Source: a virus
Length of the DNA: 40,729 nucleotides
Virus record (IMG/VR): IMGVR_UViG_3300031839_000724
Coordinates: 1-40,729 of that record
Direction: 5' to 3' (one strand)
Both the position numbers and the translations under genes were made by a program. The notes beneath the pieces are model-generated. The model was given only the letters and a program-made list of their open reading frames with translations. It searched no databases and was not told the origin of the DNA. Every line of letters begins with the position of its first letter. The stretch's first letter is position 1. Shown piece after piece: positions 19,422 through 39,957 of this stretch.

Positions 19422-20039
19422 TTAAGAAGCTACGTCATAGCCAGTGATTGTAATAACTAATCTACCCGCTGTATAAGTAGCATCGGTTGTTGCCCCAGCG
19501 GTTAAGTAAAGATACTGATCCGCCGCAATATCGCCACCAGCAACTAGACTACCCGCTGCTAAATCACCTGAGTTGATAATCAAAGTCTCAGTTAAATCAG
19601 AAATAGGAGTATCCTCCACACCTGTAGCTTCAGTAGCAGAATGCAGGTTAATATCTGGATCACCACCCGCTGGAGTCTCAAGGCACATCATAGTAACGCC
19701 GAACACCGTACCTTGGTTTGCCGTTGTAACGCGACCAATGTAAGCAACACCCGAACCGTCTTTACCAATGATGTCCCCAGCCGCAGTCGAGCGCAAACCA
19801 GTAAGGTCAATCAAAATAGTGGTTTTTACGATATTGACGTTTGTTGAAGTATCGCTTTTGAACCGCTCTACTTGTGTAACGTATACAGCCGCAGTTCCTT
19901 CGATGCCAGCACCGCCAGCAGCTTCAGTCGCCATTTTCGATCCGCTGGTAATCGTAATTTCACCAGTAGTCGCATTTTTAGATACAGTTTCAAAACCGTT
20001 TTCAGAACGCACTGGTCCTGAGAAAGTTGTATTAGCCAT
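19422..20039 (-). CDS. Probable head-associated structural protein (205 aa)
   Basis: Start at the ATG at 20039, six bases after AGGAG; the longer frame adds seven residues without support. MANTTFSGPVRSENGFETVSK is a frequent N-terminus of phage virion proteins encoded next to the capsid gene. The remainder is beta-rich with Thr/Ala/Gly (VYVTQVERFKSD, IGRVTTANQGTVFGVTMMCLE, LVITITGYDV). It is separated from the capsid gene by a 150-base spacer with strong hairpins, so it may have its own transcript level. A decoration or head-fibre role is likely, not certain. Confidence 0.77.
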   Translation of the reverse strand: MANTTFSGPVRSENGFETVSKNATTGEITITSGSKMATEAAGGAGIEGTAAVYVTQVERFKSDTSTNVNIVKTTILIDLTGLRSTAAGDIIGKDGSGVAYIGRVTTANQGTVFGVTMMCLETPAGGDPDINLHSATEATGVEDTPISDLTETLIINSGDLAAGSLVAGGDIAADQYLYLTAGATTDATYTAGRLVITITGYDVAS

Positions 20040-20064
20040 GAAGATCTCCTGTCTTGGCAAATGT

Positions 20065-20083
20065 CAGCCGCACCGTGCGGCTG
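20065..20083 (-). other. Perfect GC-rich hairpin upstream of the 205-aa gene
   Basis: CAGCCGCAC and GTGCGGCTG are exact inverted repeats separated by one base, realistically a 7-bp stem with a 5-base loop. No T-run follows on the minus strand, so it is not a standard terminator. It may stabilise the 5' end of the downstream message or be a processing site. Confidence 0.7.
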
Positions 20084-20116
20084 TCAGGGATAAAAAAACC
20101 ATACAGGAGAAATAGA

Positions 20117-20192: not shown

Positions 20193-21104
20193 TTACGCTC
20201 CGGGTGAACCGAATACTGCGCGTGGGTCGCTGAAGCCAAAGCTGTAGCGTTCACGAGCTTTAAAGCGCATGTTGCCAGTGTCGAAATCGGCTTCCATGTT
20301 TGTAGACAATGGAGTCCGTTCGAAGTGAACAAAGCCACGAGGCGCATCTGTTTTAATGAAAAACGCGTCAGGATCTGTCAGGAAATCATTGACGGCGTAA
20401 CCGTCAGGTAACATCCCCATAGACCGGATAGCGTTTGTATCATTATCAGCAGTGCCAACGCGAAGGTTTGAAACCATCAAACGCTCTGCAACGAATTGCA
20501 GTTGACGCGGAATCATCAGTTTCATGCCACGAAGGGCAACCTTCAAACCACGCTCGTCAACAAAACCTGCGATATTGATAAGGGCATCTTCAAGAGATGT
20601 CTCGTTCAAATCCGCAGCAGTTGATGGTTCGTTAGCAAATGTTCCACCGTTGGTTAACGGGTGGTCCGTCGCACAAAGCGCAACACCATCACCGCCAGCA
20701 GTCGCGCCAGCAGTAAATGCGTTGTTAAGAACCGCAGCGGCCTTAACTTGCTTTGTGTGTGCCATAGAACGAGCCAACGCACGAGTGTAACGCGAACCAA
20801 GACGATCATACAGATTGTCTTCGATAGCTTCCTCAGTAATAGAGAACGCTAGTGCGATAGTTTCGTGGTTGTAACGAGCAGTGTACGCCTCGTTAGCGTC
20901 GTCAAAGTTTACAGCAGAACCTTCCGATTTGGTTGGTGCCGCTCCGAACCCACTCAACATAACTTCCTCTTCGAATGCTCGATCAGAAGATTCTGTTGTG
21001 TAGATCTCCGCGTGTTGGTTTTCGTACCTGTCGTACTCCATACCAAACAGCGCGTTGAGGCCCGGTTCTAGCTCTTTCGCTAGTTGTGCGCGAGAAATAG
21101 CCAT
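20193..21104 (-). CDS. Major capsid protein, Mu gpT-like (303 aa)
   Basis: The helical N-terminus, then YARYNHETIALAFSITEEAIEDNLYD-type spine helix, ALCATDHPLTNGGTFANE, LMIPRQLQFVAERL and the C-terminal YSFGFSDPRAVFG resemble the Mu-like major head subunit (gpT) family, which has an HK97-type fold; family lengths near 300 aa agree. The ribosome site TAAGGAGGT is an exact 9-base match to the 16S anti-Shine-Dalgarno and includes the TAA stop of the upstream gene, as expected for the most abundant virion protein. Scaffold and co-chaperonin genes lie just upstream, and a strong terminator lies downstream. Confidence 0.9.
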   Translation of the reverse strand: MAISRAQLAKELEPGLNALFGMEYDRYENQHAEIYTTESSDRAFEEEVMLSGFGAAPTKSEGSAVNFDDANEAYTARYNHETIALAFSITEEAIEDNLYDRLGSRYTRALARSMAHTKQVKAAAVLNNAFTAGATAGGDGVALCATDHPLTNGGTFANEPSTAADLNETSLEDALINIAGFVDERGLKVALRGMKLMIPRQLQFVAERLMVSNLRVGTADNDTNAIRSMGMLPDGYAVNDFLTDPDAFFIKTDAPRGFVHFERTPLSTNMEADFDTGNMRFKARERYSFGFSDPRAVFGSPGA

Positions 21105-32555: not shown

Positions 32556-33125
32556 CTAACTAAAATCATACAATGAAGCAACGCCCAGATTCTCAACCGC
32601 TCGGCCCAAGGTCCGAGGCCTGATAAACGGACGAGCAGGAATCAATTCAGGATCCGAAACAACCGGAATCTCAAAATCAACCGGACGAGCACGAGGACGA
32701 ACCTCCGCAACCTCAAACTCCCCGTCAGACCGAGGACCACGAGTCGGTCCCAATATGTAATCAACATACGAAACCGTCTCACGAGGCAAACCACCACCCT
32801 GATCCACACGACCAGGACCAGCGTTGTACGCAGCTAAAGCCTTCTCGTAATTCCCATCATACTTACCCAACATCGCAGATAAATAATCAGCGCCAAATCG
32901 TAAACTCTCAACAGGATCCAAACGATCCCTAATAGGACGAACCTCGTACCCAGGATCACGGGCCGTGTCTGGCATAATCTGAGCTATCCCCAATGCACCC
33001 TTCTCACTACGAGCCGTCGAATCAAAACCACTCTCCCGAGAAATCAAACGAACATATATATCAGGATCAATACCACGAGACTCCGCCATCGATCTCGCCA
33101 ACTTCTCCAAATACTCCCGCTCCAT
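32556..33125 (-). CDS. Soluble lytic transglycosylase, SLT domain (189 aa)
   Basis: Catalytic glutamate in LISRESGF (E31), then GALGIAQIMP (43-52) and AYNAGPGRV (99-107): the three motifs of family 1 lytic transglycosylases, which cleave glycan strands. There is no signal peptide, so it probably travels in the virion to open the wall during DNA entry, or aids lysis. The ATG at 33125 shares an A with the upstream TGA. A GGGAG ribosome site sits in the preceding KREYL codons, and the protein itself begins MEREYLEK, repeating the same DNA. Confidence 0.9.
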   Translation of the reverse strand: MEREYLEKLARSMAESRGIDPDIYVRLISRESGFDSTARSEKGALGIAQIMPDTARDPGYEVRPIRDRLDPVESLRFGADYLSAMLGKYDGNYEKALAAYNAGPGRVDQGGGLPRETVSYVDYILGPTRGPRSDGEFEVAEVRPRARPVDFEIPVVSDPELIPARPFIRPRTLGRAVENLGVASLYDFS

Positions 33126-33148
33126 CACAAATACTCCCGCTTTAAAGA
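33108..33148 (-). repeat. CGGGAGTATTTG repeat at the HExxH/SLT junction
   Basis: The 14-mer CAAATACTCCCGCT (plus strand) occurs at 33108-33121 and 33128-33141. The 28 bases 33121-33148 are identical to 34104-34131. The segment codes for the KREYL tail of one gene, contains the ribosome site and start of the next, and codes for EREYL of that next gene. Confidence 0.92.
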
Positions 33149-34108
33149 CACAAGTCCCCCAGTTGAAAACTTCTTAGTAGGAAACATCTTCCTATCAAAA
33201 TCCATAGGATTTATAAAATCCCTGCTAATCGCAGAGCCAAGTTTTTTCCCCTCCGCAGACAAGCGCGTAACTTCCGCTTTCGCATCCTCCGGATCCATAT
33301 CCCGAAACGAAGAATAACCCGTGCCAAACAAATCCTTATATGCCCGCAATAACTGCTCCGAATCATCCTGTTCAGGACGAACCTTCCCAGTAACCGGACG
33401 AGGACTAGGCAACCTCTTCAATATAGGATCTAATTCCTTCATTAAAGAAACTATCCCCCTAACATCCGATACCCGCTCTAAATCAGGCAGCATCTTCCCA
33501 TAACGACCCGTCTCCCCATATGTGAACTCCGTAGGCTCAGGACGCTGCTGAGACTTCATCGCCTCAGTACGAAGATACTCACTAACTCGATCCACAGTCG
33601 GTAACGCAGCTAACTCCTCCTCCGTTATATCCCCGCGCAACGCCGCCAATACCCCCTCGCGTAACTCAGGACTCTGTAAATCCGAACTCTTCGTCTTCTC
33701 AGTAATTACCCCAAAAATTCCCGCTTTAGAAAAAGGGTCCGTGGGTCGCGCATACTCATCCAAAAAAGGAGGATCAAACAACTCAACAAACTTTTCTTCC
33801 TGAGCAGCAGAAATCTGGCCTCTGTTCTGAAAAGGACCACCCGCCTCATCCAAAAGAGCACCAACCTTGTCATACGCATCACGACCAAAACGATAAATAA
33901 ATTCCGCAGGATTGTCGTTGTATAACTGACGTAACTCCATAATTCCTAAATGACGATACTCATGAGCCTCAACCCCAGGACCATATGGACTTGAACGAAG
34001 ATCCTCGGGCATCGCTATTATGCCCGTCCTCTGAATTACCTGCGGCTCCATGCGTCCATACCTAACCGCGTCACCAGCCCTGCGACCGTACTCCGTTATT
34101 GGATCCAT
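33125..34108 (-). CDS. HExxH-containing putative metalloprotease (327 aa)
   Basis: GVEAHEYRHLGIMELRQLY contains H49-E50-x-x-H53, the zincin active-site pattern, inside a helix as expected; a third zinc ligand cannot be assigned. The rest is helical with LREGVLAALRGDITEEELAALP and GRYGKMLPDL. The C-terminus KKFSTGGLVSLKREYL combines the glycine-pair motif and the KREYL tail. It lies between a polyvalent-type protein and the SLT enzyme, with TGATG overlaps at both ends. A virion-borne protease is plausible; not proven. Confidence 0.72.
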   Translation of the reverse strand: MDPITEYGRRAGDAVRYGRMEPQVIQRTGIIAMPEDLRSSPYGPGVEAHEYRHLGIMELRQLYNDNPAEFIYRFGRDAYDKVGALLDEAGGPFQNRGQISAAQEEKFVELFDPPFLDEYARPTDPFSKAGIFGVITEKTKSSDLQSPELREGVLAALRGDITEEELAALPTVDRVSEYLRTEAMKSQQRPEPTEFTYGETGRYGKMLPDLERVSDVRGIVSLMKELDPILKRLPSPRPVTGKVRPEQDDSEQLLRAYKDLFGTGYSSFRDMDPEDAKAEVTRLSAEGKKLGSAISRDFINPMDFDRKMFPTKKFSTGGLVSLKREYL

Positions 34109-34131
34109 CACAAATACTCCCGCTTTAAAGA
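34104..34131 (-). repeat. 28-bp direct repeat, second copy (gene junction)
   Basis: Identical to 33121-33148. It covers the SLKREYL codons, TGA stop, ribosome site and ATG of the HExxH gene. A shortened relative spans the terminase-portal junction at 29250-29266. Confidence 0.92.
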
Positions 34132-36450
34132 TCCAAGGCCCGTGAACCGAGGATCACGAACCATACCCCCATTACGAAACGCAGAAATCCCCGTCTCCCG
34201 TAAGGCACGAAGAAAGTTTTCAGTAATCTCGAACCCCGGAACCTCGTGGTAAAAATAGTCGTCATCGTACCTGTCCCGACCAGCAATGGTTACATTGCCC
34301 AACTTCGGCATCTCTAAACCACTGTCCTTCTCTAACTTCGCTAAAATATTCTTAACACGACTCGGAACAATCTTATCATAATATTCCCGCTGACCAGACA
34401 AATCACCCATCGTCATATCATAAGCCATGTCCCCAGTGCCCAACGTGAAAAACTCCAAACCCTCGTTACTCGGTAAAGCAATCTGATCAAAAGCACTCTT
34501 AATCGCCATGTCCGTAACACGATTCGTCTTAAATAACTTCCCTAAACCAACATCCTCCGGAACCTGATACCCCGACTTATACTGAAGATCCGATAAAATA
34601 CTCGCAGCACGACGCTTCTTGAAACTAGGATTCAAACCATCAAACACTTTTGATAGTTCTTTCCGCGATGCAGCATCAATATCTGGAAAAACACTTAGTA
34701 CACCGTCTTGCTCAAAATACTTCTTCTTAACATCCGGTGATAACTGATCAAAAAACTCCAGCAATACATCACCACGAGCATCACCAACCGACTCCACACT
34801 GTTTAACGTCTCCAACATACCCGTCGGTAATGAATCCAAAACATTCCGAGCCTGTACCGCAGATCGAGAACGCTGCGTAATGTCCGACTGAATCTCCCCC
34901 AAATGAAACGATGAAGTACCCTCCAACCCACCATCCTTAGCCACAGGAAACACAGCAGAACGATAATGTACAACAGGAACCCCGCTCACCGAACCAAAAT
35001 GCTCGTCAGCACCCGGCAAACCCCGCGCACCATCATCAAAATTCTGGTTTAACGTTAATACCGTCTCCTGATAATCACTCCCGCCCGGAGTGAAATACTG
35101 AGGATAAGCAACCCGATCCCCCTTTAAAACATTCACAGCAACCGGATCTTCAACTAACTGATCAAAAACCTCATCCAAACTAACCCCGTCAGGAAAACGA
35201 TTGCGAAGATCCTTCGTCGCTAAACCACGAGCTTCCAACTCCGCGGGCTTTACACCACGGTTCTCCAACGTCTTCACAAACTGATCAACAGAACCAAACT
35301 TCTGTTTCGGAAAATTAGGCAAAACAGGGTCTAAACTATCCCGCAATACCGAATCCTCAAACAAACCAAACCGAAAACCCGTCCGATCAAAAGGATTTGT
35401 GTCACTAACATTTGCAAAAGGATCCAACGCACCACCCGGAGCAGTAGGCGGCGTATTGTTCTCCCGAGTAACACTCACCACAAAACCATAGTCCGGATTA
35501 AAATAATCATTAATAATCTCAGCTGAAACACCAGCATCTTCCGCTATCCGACGAGCCACCCTAACCCGGTCCTCAATGTCAATCGTCATTTCACCAAAAC
35601 GAGCGTCAGCCATACTCATGTCCGGAGAAAACGCCGAAAGTAAATCGTCCTCAAACTCACTAGCACCCATAATGTTGGGCAAACCATCCGTCCGCAACTG
35701 ACGCAATAACGGCTGTAATATATCCATGTCCACAAATCGAGTGCCCGTATCAACATCAGTCGCCGTCACCGGATCAATTCGAGTAGTAACGGCTAGCTCA
35801 ACCTGATTCTCGTCCGGTAAAAACTCTTCAGGACGTAAAACAACCTCCATAGTGGCCTCGTCAGGTCCAATAAACGGATCCATGCCAAACGAATCATCAA
35901 TAGGAGGTTCAAGATAATCTATCAACGCCATCTCTTCAGTTTGATCGGAACGATCAAATTCACGATTTAAATAATCGTAATAATCGTTTTCAATCTCATC
36001 AGGCATTTGATAGTCAGCTTCAGGAAATTCAAAAGGTGCAAGGGCCTCATCAACATCAACAGAAACATCAATCCGAGGCTCCTGCAAAGCCTGCTCCTGC
36101 AAAGCCAATAACTCATCTTCCGAATTAGCACGAGCCAACGCCTCCAACTGAGCCTCCGCATCAGGGCCCGGACTCAAACCAAACATCTCCATTAAAGCTG
36201 CCTTGGCTGGCTGCTTTAAAACTCGACCAGCACCCAAAGTTAAAGCAGGGATTAACGTCTCTAATCCAGCCTCGATCCGATCTTCTGGCTTCTCGCCCGC
36301 CGTGCCAATGCGCCCAGCCGCCTCCATACCACGACGAAGACCCGTCGTCGGAACCAAATTAGAAACGTCATCCGCTCCAACCGACTGAAACAACGGACGA
36401 AGGCCCGGGGGAATATATTGCGTGATCGGTAAAGAAAATCTATCGGCCAT
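34108..36450 (-). CDS. Polyvalent-type phage protein with EIQSD motif (780 aa)
   Basis: First gene of the late block. Start at the ATG at 36450, six bases after GAGAG; a TTG 12 bases earlier is less likely. Residues about 1-120 are helical, and about 125-260 very acidic. Around residues 480-545 YQETVLTLNQNF, HFGSVSGVPVVHYRSAVF and SFHLGEIQSDITQ follow. Near residue 695 comes GQREYYDKIVPSRVKNILAKL. I associate this order with domains of large phage polyvalent proteins thought to be injected with DNA; their biochemistry is unknown. It ends FRNGGMVRDPRFTGLGSLKREYL. Confidence 0.75.
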   Translation of the reverse strand: MADRFSLPITQYIPPGLRPLFQSVGADDVSNLVPTTGLRRGMEAAGRIGTAGEKPEDRIEAGLETLIPALTLGAGRVLKQPAKAALMEMFGLSPGPDAEAQLEALARANSEDELLALQEQALQEPRIDVSVDVDEALAPFEFPEADYQMPDEIENDYYDYLNREFDRSDQTEEMALIDYLEPPIDDSFGMDPFIGPDEATMEVVLRPEEFLPDENQVELAVTTRIDPVTATDVDTGTRFVDMDILQPLLRQLRTDGLPNIMGASEFEDDLLSAFSPDMSMADARFGEMTIDIEDRVRVARRIAEDAGVSAEIINDYFNPDYGFVVSVTRENNTPPTAPGGALDPFANVSDTNPFDRTGFRFGLFEDSVLRDSLDPVLPNFPKQKFGSVDQFVKTLENRGVKPAELEARGLATKDLRNRFPDGVSLDEVFDQLVEDPVAVNVLKGDRVAYPQYFTPGGSDYQETVLTLNQNFDDGARGLPGADEHFGSVSGVPVVHYRSAVFPVAKDGGLEGTSSFHLGEIQSDITQRSRSAVQARNVLDSLPTGMLETLNSVESVGDARGDVLLEFFDQLSPDVKKKYFEQDGVLSVFPDIDAASRKELSKVFDGLNPSFKKRRAASILSDLQYKSGYQVPEDVGLGKLFKTNRVTDMAIKSAFDQIALPSNEGLEFFTLGTGDMAYDMTMGDLSGQREYYDKIVPSRVKNILAKLEKDSGLEMPKLGNVTIAGRDRYDDDYFYHEVPGFEITENFLRALRETGISAFRNGGMVRDPRFTGLGSLKREYL

Positions 36451-36477
36451 CGGTTCTCTCAATAAAACTCAAATGAA

Positions 36478-36483
36478 ATTATA
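36478..36483 (-). promoter_or_regulatory. Possible -10 element of the late block
   Basis: On the minus strand TATAAT lies 28 bases before the first late ATG (36450), preceded by an AT-rich stretch (TTTTAAATTATTTCGGG) but no good -35 hexamer. It could be an activator-dependent promoter. Confidence 0.4.
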
Positions 36484-36690
36484 CCCGAAATAATTTAAAA
36501 GGGATAGGGGCCTCAAAGGCGGGATTCCCTATAGGGGGAAAACCCGAATGGAATTATTCTCGAATGAATTTACAAGACCAACATTATACAGACACCAGAC
36601 GCACCGCACCGCCCAAAACGGGGGGATGGGGGTCGCAAGAGTCCCGATCCGTGCACCCAGATTTGCCAAAGTAACCCCTAACAACGTAGA

Positions 36691-36722
36691 GTCGCCTGTT
36701 AACCTCGCAAGCTCGGGGCGAC
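36691..36722. repeat. Dispersed hairpin repeat, copy 1
   Basis: GTCGCC at 36691-36696 pairs with GGCGAC at 36717-36722. The 26 bases 36694-36719 are identical to 39415-39440. The stem of the other copy is GTTGCC/GGCAAC, so the outer base pair changed on both sides while pairing was kept. A pyrimidine-rich TCTTTTCTTCT tract adjoins the minus-strand side in both copies. Confidence 0.88.
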
Positions 36723-36724
36723 GA

Positions 36725-36753
36725 GAAGAAAAGACAACGGGCCTTCAGCCCGT
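36725..36753 (-). terminator. Candidate rho-independent terminator
   Basis: On the minus strand ACGGGC, loop TGAAG and GCCCGT form a perfect 6-bp stem (36737-36753), followed by TGTCTTTTCTTCTCG. It would end a minus-strand RNA begun within the noncoding region, upstream of the late block. Confidence 0.6.
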
Positions 36754-36797
36754 GCGGTATCCGAACCGCAATCGGCCAACGGCTATAGCCCCGTTGG
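36753..36797. other. Two adjacent perfect hairpins
   Basis: TGCGGT/ACCGCA (36753-36758 with 36765-36770) and CCAACGG/CCGTTGG (36776-36782 with 36791-36797). With the flanking terminator stem and repeat hairpin they make four stems in about 107 bases. I tested a tRNA reading (T-arm-like TGCGGTTCGGATACCGCA on the minus strand) and found no D arm or acceptor. Confidence 0.6.
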
Positions 36798-37038
36798 ATC
36801 AGGCACTTAGAAACAGAGGAACCGTACCGATATGCGCTCTGACCCGCGCCCGATCTATCTCCACTGTACGGCGATGGCGCACTGCGCCGGGAACATCCTT
36901 CAGATGTTCTCACGCCTTGTGCACATCGTCGTGCAGCGGAGCCTCTTGAGATCGGTCAGTCGGATCAGGTGCGCCAGCTATACACACACACATTTTGAAT
37001 GATACCTCTGGTGTGCCCTTCGTATTTATGCGTCGTCA

Positions 37039-37088
37039 ACCCCATCACGTTTATTGTGTCCTTGCGGACTCATTCTTTTTGATGGGGT
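37039..37088. other. Two-level RNA-like stem-loop
   Basis: ACCCCATCA (37039-37047) pairs perfectly with TGATGGGGT (37080-37088). Inside, GTCC (37058-37061) and GGAC (37066-37069) flank TTGC; read on the minus strand this is a GCAA tetraloop. The inner part (37051-37071) recurs at 39458-39477 with one base difference in length. Confidence 0.7.
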
Positions 37089-37274
37089 CGGAAGGTCACG
37101 GTGGACGTTAGGTCATTTGTATTGGACGTAACGTAACCTTGAGGCCCCAACAGATCTCTTTTGCTCTGGCGGACTTGCGGGCCGTAGTGTCCTCGTCCGG
37201 TGAGCAAATATGAGAGGTCAGTCTCAAGTTTACGAAACGTCAAATCCAAAGGACCTTACGTCAACCGGGACTAC

Positions 37275-37292
37275 CCGAGCGGGGGCGCTCGG
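37275..37292 (+). other. Perfect 7-bp hairpin
   Basis: CCGAGCG (37275-37281), loop GGGG, CGCTCGG (37286-37292), then CTTCCTTG. It could be a weak plus-strand terminator, but the T-run is poor. Confidence 0.55.
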
Positions 37293-37340
37293 CTTCCTTG
37301 ACCATTCCCTCAACCCAAACAGGAATCAACGGAAAAAAGA

Positions 37341-37392
37341 ATTCCGGGCAACCCTTCTCCAAGCGTGCTCCGGGCCGCCCGGAATCCTTTTT
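37341..37392 (+). terminator. Candidate terminator upstream of the small-gene operon
   Basis: ATTCCGGGC (37341-37349) pairs exactly with GCCCGGAAT (37377-37385), followed by CCTTTTTG. An alternative tighter stem is CCGGGC/GCCCGG near 37370-37382. It would end plus-strand transcription about 105 bases before the first small gene, implying a transcript that begins in the noncoding region. Confidence 0.6.
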
Positions 37393-37496
37393 GCATTTAA
37401 ACTCTGTTAGGGATCTCGGCGCGATAAATTCAAATTGCAAACCGTAGGCATCATCACAAATGTGTGGTGTGTAACTCAAATATAGGAAATATCAAC

Positions 37497-39389: not shown

Positions 39390-39411
39390 TCATCAAAAAG
39401 TTTTAAAAGGA

Positions 39412-39443
39412 GTTGCCTGTTAACCTCGCAAGCTCGGGGCAAC
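39412..39443. repeat. Dispersed hairpin repeat, copy 2
   Basis: GTTGCC (39412-39417) pairs with GGCAAC (39438-39443). The core 39415-39440 is identical to 36694-36719. A neighbouring block (39458-39477, containing GTCC and GGAC arms) matches 37051-37071. So parts of the noncoding region at 36.7-37.1 kb are duplicated here between convergent units. Confidence 0.88.
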
Positions 39444-39486
39444 AAAGAAGAAAAGAGTTATTGTGTCCTTCGGACTCTCTATCCTA

Positions 39487-39518: not shown

Positions 39519-39529
39519 CCGCCGCGCCA

Positions 39530-39612
39530 GAGTCGCAAGGCTCAGGCGCGAGCCGCAAGGCATAATATCAGCGGCAGCAGAGCCGCAAGGCCTCGAATAG
39601 AGACGCAAGGTC
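39530..39612. repeat. Array of four CGCAAGG mini-hairpins
   Basis: CGCAAGG occurs at 39534, 39554, 39584 and 39604, offsets of 20, 30 and 20 bases. Each lies in short complementary arms (for example GAGTC-GCAA-GGCTC at 39530-39543, GCC-GCAA-GGC at 39552-39561 and 39582-39591), giving GNRA-type loops on the plus strand. The last two lie inside the 3' end of the nuclease gene. Confidence 0.75.
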
Positions 39613-39957
39613 CTCGAAACTCTGCCCCTCAGCCCCCTCAATCCCCTTTTCAAGGAGCTCGGGCCCCTTATCTCCCCCAAATAAATATATCCTCTTGGTA
39701 GAGAGGGCCTTTACCAAGTAAAAATTATTGCCCCCGCGAGCCCAATACGCCATATTCCACGCAATTTGATGCGGAGATATTTTTGGTTTGTTGTTTTTGA
39801 CTGCTTTGAGCTCCGCCCAAAAAGAAATACCATCCCAGATTGCATGAACATCCGGTACACCACCGCCATGCCTGTTTTCTATGCGGGTTGCGAAGCATTT
39901 TTCAGGCAGATTTTTCCTGATCGTGCTCCAAAAGTTGGACTCCGGTCCTCTGCTCAT
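39568..39957 (-). CDS. PD-(D/E)XK nuclease, Holliday-junction-resolvase-like (129 aa)
   Basis: Active-site order: E6 (PESNFW), GGGVPDVHAIWDG (D36), WAELKAVK (E49-L-K51) and Q64 in SPHQIAW. This is the PD-(D/E)XK core of small nucleases such as VRR-NUC and resolvase-like enzymes. The length is that of a minimal domain. The ATG overlaps the terminase small subunit by 56 bases in another frame, with AGGAT eight bases before it. It could trim or resolve branched phage DNA before packaging. The class is clear; substrate unknown. Confidence 0.83.
   Translation of the reverse strand: MSRGPESNFWSTIRKNLPEKCFATRIENRHGGGVPDVHAIWDGISFWAELKAVKNNKPKISPHQIAWNMAYWARGGNNFYLVKALSTKRIYLFGGDKGPELLEKGIEGAEGQSFEDLASLFEALRLCCR

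Follow-up and report, generated by a model that had tools for sequence, protein, structure and literature searches.

A putative family of large, modular noncoding RNAs in a fixed gap between divergent genes of marine phages

In PMC12286853, GOLLD is described as a large, ornate phage-encoded RNA whose 3' part is conserved and whose 5' part is less so, ROOL as an RNA of some 660 nt that is found in phages or prophages and is very extensively paired, and OLE as a bacterial RNA; the functions of GOLLD and ROOL are given there as unsolved. The RNA proposed here resembles GOLLD as a large phage RNA with a constant tail and differing bodies, which is a resemblance of layout only, and resembles ROOL as a phage RNA of comparable size with extensive pairing; with OLE it has in common that it is large and ornate. 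However, it differs from GOLLD in its closed multi-arm frame, rod, and three-hairpin tail, from ROOL in its fixed slot between divergent genes, and from all three in having no Rfam match. Rfam cmscan at the gathering score detected no family in the gap of the window, and in 24 other loci it gave no match of any kind. GOLLD, ROOL, and OLE were also absent at permissive thresholds from the gap of the window (E up to 10) and from that of locus L025 (E up to 5), and other families gave only chance matches in the gap at such thresholds. In addition, GOLLD and ROOL often lie near tRNA islands, whereas the window has no tRNA genes. GOLLD is also known to assemble into a multimeric cage made of RNA only. 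A search of the titles and opening lines of open-access literature did not find this RNA described.

The window, that is, the whole stretch of DNA that was analysed, is a 40.7-kb phage record (IMGVR_UViG_3300031839_000724, 40,729 nt). Its late genes are long and lie on the minus strand; they include the portal and the terminase large subunit, whose closest cultured matches are phage 023Pt_psg01, Pelagibacter phage HTVC027P, and phage DSL-LC04 (58–61% identity). The locus belongs to a marine phage group. The gap at 36463–37496 separates the late block from a block of small plus-strand genes. The first gene of the late block encodes a protein of 784 aa with no match among cultured phages, and blastn against cultured phages and plasmids returned no matches. 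No long open frame was conserved over nine relatives; the gap is thus noncoding, as the first-pass annotation had proposed. Two further features were observed among the late genes. The Rfam family RF03012 (Mu-gpT-DE RNA) matched at 20037–20089 (minus strand, 72.1 bits), shortly past the end of the gene predicted to encode the major head protein (20193–21104), and the C-terminal peptide SLKREYL is common to two adjacent late proteins (33125–34111 and 34108–36462, minus strand).

Extent of the structure and distribution of homologues

On the minus strand, 36725–37473 (749 nt) had a predicted folding energy of −337.8 kcal/mol (z −12.2), and the plus strand gave −324.1 kcal/mol (z −13.3), each against 20 dinucleotide shuffles; the minus-strand fold of 36463–37440 had a z of −6.9. 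Windows of 300 nt from 36701 to 37300 reached z values of −5 to −8 on one strand or both, whereas those at 36401–36700 and in the adjacent gene were near zero, and 23 control windows from coding parts had mean values of −0.3/−0.8 and minima of −2.7/−4.2. Since z is near zero at 36401–36700, the structured part covers about 750 nt (36725–37474) rather than the full kilobase that had been claimed from the sequence, and 36463–36700 shows no such excess of structure. The perfect stems claimed for the gap are present, among them 36776–36797, 36891–36909, 37275–37292, and 37369–37383. A scan for terminator-like sites gave 5 sites against 2.7 (sd 1.8) in shuffles and is therefore weak by itself. Folds and homologues together point to one large RNA of two domains and a tail at 36725–37474 (minus strand), with both ends putative.

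Homologues were collected from IMG/VR by several routes. A 19-base pattern for the apical loop of the RNA retrieved 15 contigs, all matching the gap at 100% to about 70% identity; one of them, 3300031972_000800, was identical to the window over the 1078 nt compared and was therefore taken as the window's own population. With a neighbouring early protein as the query, ten loci were obtained, and an RNA lay in the gap of all ten: nine were of the window type (one, L027, cut by the contig end) and one, L025, had a different body. A second core pattern gave three contigs ending inside the RNA (L049, L050, and L053) and two chance matches. The tail pattern matched 37 stretches, 24 of them new. Model R1, built from ten tails (alignment A2, without L023, L016, and L011; seven distinct rows counted), gave at least 52.9 bits for 18 of the new stretches and 41.4 bits for a truncated copy; four others (L061, L067, L073, and L074) scored 22–31 bits, and L076 was a chance match. 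The analyses of the tail and domain II did not use L027, whose contig stops within the RNA, and L029 is a duplicate of L028. In total, 39 contigs were counted, the window's own population included: the 15 apical-loop contigs, L025, L056, L049, L050, L053, and 19 tail-model contigs. In every contig where its position could be judged, the RNA occupies the gap between divergent genes.

The tail-model contigs were related to the window also by their proteins. Eighteen of the 19 carried a window protein at E 1e-4 (L072 had none within its 3.5 kb), with a terminase large subunit 77–90% or a terminase small subunit 59–98% identical to that of the window. No window protein was found at E 1e-4 in L061, L067, L073, or L074, which stand outside the count; the tail may therefore reach further, and these loci may represent another phage lineage that carries RNAs of this kind. 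In L074, divergent genes are likewise separated by a long gap. A relaxed apical-loop pattern gave only 12 extra stretches, all unrelated and set in sequence that does not resemble the RNA. In bacterial genomes, the apical-loop pattern had no matches, and the tail pattern matched 21 stretches, the best at 20.1 bits with R1, which were taken as chance. Some of the gaps of four cultured relatives proved structured when folded, with z about −6.6 in the divergent-gene gaps of HTVC027P (L031, 17177–17724) and DSL-LC04 (L032, 13212–13854); R2, a model of the rod described below, found nothing in the four gaps.

Predicted architecture and covariation of the RNA

Domain I (36982–37474, minus strand) is a multi-arm junction inside a long helix formed by its 5' and 3' ends (ACACACC.../...UGUGUGUGU), as folded in nine relatives. 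Single-sequence folds of these nine were closely similar in the closing helix and the rod. The closing helix was found in 24 of the 27 loci tested, where a 3' UGUGUGU strand pairs with a 5' strand located 19–42 nt after the complement of the start codon of the divergent gene; the 5' end proposed for the RNA is taken from this position. The motif was absent from two loci with a different body (RNA-B, below), and L066 was the third without a resolved helix. The span of domain I in the 24 loci was 281–494 nt.

The conserved core of domain I (37029–37308, minus strand; alignment A1) comprises the junction, the P3 hairpin, the rod, and the P4 hairpin. The rod (37099–37268, minus strand), defined by A1, covariation, and model R2, is a series of short helices with mostly single mismatches between them, some around ACGU-U-ACGU modules. 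Its apical loop, GGAC-GAGGACACUACGGCCCGCAA-GUCC (37171–37198, minus strand), was invariant in all 13 aligned sequences, and one closing pair changed from A-U to G-C in some of them. Alignment A1 holds 13 sequences of the 280-nt core, counted as 12 distinct rows with identical rows taken once, and represents about six lineages only. RNAalifold gave 75 pairs on A1, of which 24 had changes on both sides, and 98.3% of 880 cells were paired. Two-sided cells numbered 93, against 34.7 in shuffled alignments and 8–15 with the structure slid, a control that favours the core structure, since A1 was also the source of that structure.

The arms around the core are less constant. The P4 arm (37039–37088, minus strand) has the 9-bp closing stem that had been singled out from the sequence, and this stem is indeed perfect (37039–37047/37080–37088) around an inner GTCC/GGAC hairpin; the arm is shortened or replaced in relatives. 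The P2 arm (37314–37412, minus strand), seen in the stem scan and in comparison with relatives, is a terminator-like, variable side arm: it was missing in L028, L022, and L016, other hairpins stood in its place in L014, L019, and L020, and L009 and L015 are also among the loci where it is absent or replaced. The junction motif GGAAT(C/G)GT(C/A)AAGG recurred in RNAs whose arms differ greatly, such as L064, L072, and L079. Several hairpins recur at other sites. Nearly the same hairpin (AAAAGCCUAUCUCUUUU) occurs in different arms (P2/P4) across L009, L019, and L020, and the hairpin of the P4 arm (GAGTCCG(C)AAGGACACAATAA, 37050–37075) recurs outside the RNA at 39456–39482, where it adjoins the copy of a 47-bp element. 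Hairpin modules appear to be mobile among sites. At 39529–39614, in and near the 3' end of a minus-strand ORF, four small repeats resembling hairpins, of the form GNCGCAAGG, were also seen.

Domain II (36828–36980, minus strand) is closed by GCGC..CUGAUCC / GGGUCAG..GCGC. Single-sequence folds of 11 homologues, rather than alignment counts, show its closing helix changing on both sides together and its distal hairpins replaced. The three-hairpin tail (36732–36804, minus strand), recognised by alignment A2, model R1, and covariation, is common to RNAs with different bodies; in L014 and L020, domain I is kept and the tail is absent. Its covariation was assessed on alignment A4, which holds 28 tail matches (24 distinct); 28 loci were given, L074 fell below the cut, L059 contributed two matches, and L062, L070, L075, L078, and L081 were omitted as near-copies or truncated. 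On A4, which was fitted to R1 and collected with a pattern that fixed hairpin 2 but not hairpins 1 and 3, 97.2% of 394 cells were paired, 11 of 17 pairs had two-sided changes, and two-sided cells numbered 54, against 15.0 shuffled and 1–6 slid. An alternative RNAalifold structure for the tail was set aside since a portion of the sequences cannot form some of its long-range pairs, and a pseudoknot between the tail and the segment after domain II was examined by eye and not supported. A resemblance between hairpin 2 and a tRNA T-arm was weighed as well, and no claim is made for it. Two tandem tails about 250 nt apart were observed in L059 (7018–7092 and 7264–7339), and likewise in L070 and L075. 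The 47-bp element, a hairpin with a pyrimidine tract, lies directly 3' of the RNA (36689–36734); its 91% copy at 39410–39456, beyond the early genes, differs by a compensatory stem change (GTCGCC/GGCGAC versus GTTGCC/GGCAAC).

The strong covariation of core and tail in homologous gaps, a check that the first-pass annotation itself had named, together with the excess of structure over dinucleotide shuffles, bears out the suggestion of that annotation that the gap is a phage ncRNA locus. Palindromic GACGT-T-ACGTC repeats within the rod and the position in a divergent gap might also suit a DNA element, namely a replication or recombination origin whose hairpins act as cruciforms or single strands. 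However, the compensatory changes run helix by helix with G-U intermediates, the apical loop is invariant, the 73-nt tail has its own covariation, and the strands are asymmetric, so that such an element is very improbable. Terminator-like stems on both sides of the gap had been read as marks of several RNAs running both ways. Both stems exist, but the right one is the dispensable P2 arm, and the left one is the last hairpin of the tail. Moreover, the two ends of domain I pair over nearly 500 nt, in relatives as well as in the window. Several separate small RNAs with terminators are thus hardly credible, and that part of the earlier reading is abandoned: the stems are better explained as parts of one long RNA, probably transcribed leftwards. 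The predicted folds therefore describe one large two-domain RNA with a three-hairpin tail, not a set of small RNAs.

Strand and proposed transcription of the RNA

The RNA is probably encoded on the minus strand. In 11 comparisons between strict neighbours, G-U changes numbered 11 in the minus sense and 3 in the other, along with 20 compensatory and 16 broken pairs. In 61 looser comparisons, 327 distinct G-U events favoured the minus sense and 220 the other; these events are non-independent, and 1275 broken cells indicate that the looser alignments or structures are rough. The fold energy favoured the minus sense in 18 of 19 members, and in the window the two senses tied. The z-score was lower in only 10 of 19; it was therefore uninformative and was dropped as a strand test. 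A U-rich run follows the last tail hairpin on the minus strand, which makes this hairpin (36725–36753; stem scan and tail comparison) a probable terminator; the run is confined to the window, its close relatives, and L025, and a terminator after the tail was not found in L009, L015, L019, L026, and L056.

The main rival is a giant cis-acting leader on the plus strand, that is, the 5' UTR of the early operon, with the closing helix controlling translation. The closing helix does end at a short and fairly constant distance from the early gene start, just ahead of the ribosome-binding site, and the plus strand folds almost as well. However, the G-U asymmetry and the position of the U-rich run favour the minus strand, and a hypervariable body would be odd for a regulatory leader; we regard this explanation as unlikely.

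Another possibility considered is that the RNA is a minus-strand leader of the late operon, such as a put-type antitermination RNA that modifies the RNA polymerase leaving the gap. HK022 put and related antitermination leaders are phage RNAs lying in the direction of transcription of their operon, as here. The RNA has the strand and direction of the late genes, and transcription could continue into them in relatives whose tail is not followed by a U-rich run. However, put RNA is about 70 nt long, far smaller than the RNA of the window, and most of the body here is exchangeable. In addition, a candidate −10 element of the late operon (TATAAT, 36583–36588, minus strand), picked by eye from the sequence and its relatives, and a second such candidate (36478–36483, minus strand), also picked by eye, lie between the tail and the late genes, which disfavours a pure late leader. 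This reading, too, appears improbable.

We therefore favour a minus-strand RNA transcribed as its own unit during infection. Transcription would start slightly within the leader of the divergent early gene and proceed leftwards as far as the tail at 36725, and the RNA would end ahead of the apparent late-operon promoters. A candidate −10 element (TATATT, 37479–37484, minus strand) overlaps that leader; it is a consensus match only, and matches of the TATATT type were about as many as in shuffles.

Exchange of parts and biological meaning

L025 has both flanks in common with the window and carries the same tail, but its body (RNA-B) is different. Over 901 nt, RNA-B of L025 folded at −408.8 kcal/mol (z −15.0) in the same sense and at −363.1 kcal/mol (z −10.5) in the other. 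A first RNA-B pattern matched three unrelated stretches besides L025; a second matched L056 and three unrelated stretches. The RNA-B of L056 is 96.6% identical to that of L025 over 793 nt, and its tail is the tail of L026, a window-type RNA. Rod model R2 matched RNA-B of L025 at 28.6 bits (E 6e-7 in a 961-base search) and L056 at E 1.3e-4 in a 204-kb search. Since the antisense of true members scores 61–65 bits with this model, the match shows a like build more surely than common descent. Frame and tail thus persist from phage to phage, whereas the arms, or almost the entire body, are exchanged.

Taken together, the comparisons and predicted folds make it probable that the gap holds the gene of a large, independently folding, noncoding phage RNA on the minus strand, a judgement that includes its acting in trans. 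The best reading is a new family of large, modular phage RNAs that probably act in trans; they are comparable to GOLLD and ROOL and are members of neither. Such an RNA may act in trans as a structural RNA, alone, as an RNP, or as a multimer; the invariant loop and the tail would be contact sites, and the fast-changing arms would face something variable between hosts. More tentatively, these may be platform RNAs, with a fixed frame (closing helix, junction, and tail) in a fixed slot and with arms or nearly the whole body exchanged. By analogy, the exchange of arms could be like the swapping of receptor-binding proteins, perhaps in an RNA-only assembly or as a decoy in a phage–host arms race, an idea that we also hold as speculative.

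Few giant structured phage RNAs are known, and a family without an Rfam match adds 39 contigs to them. Its predicted fold is backed by covariation, variants with swapped arms occur naturally, and the tail is constant, which allows the constant and the variable parts to be probed independently. Since an RNA occupies the slot of every locus fetched by the neighbouring protein, the family may provide a handle on the function of such RNAs.
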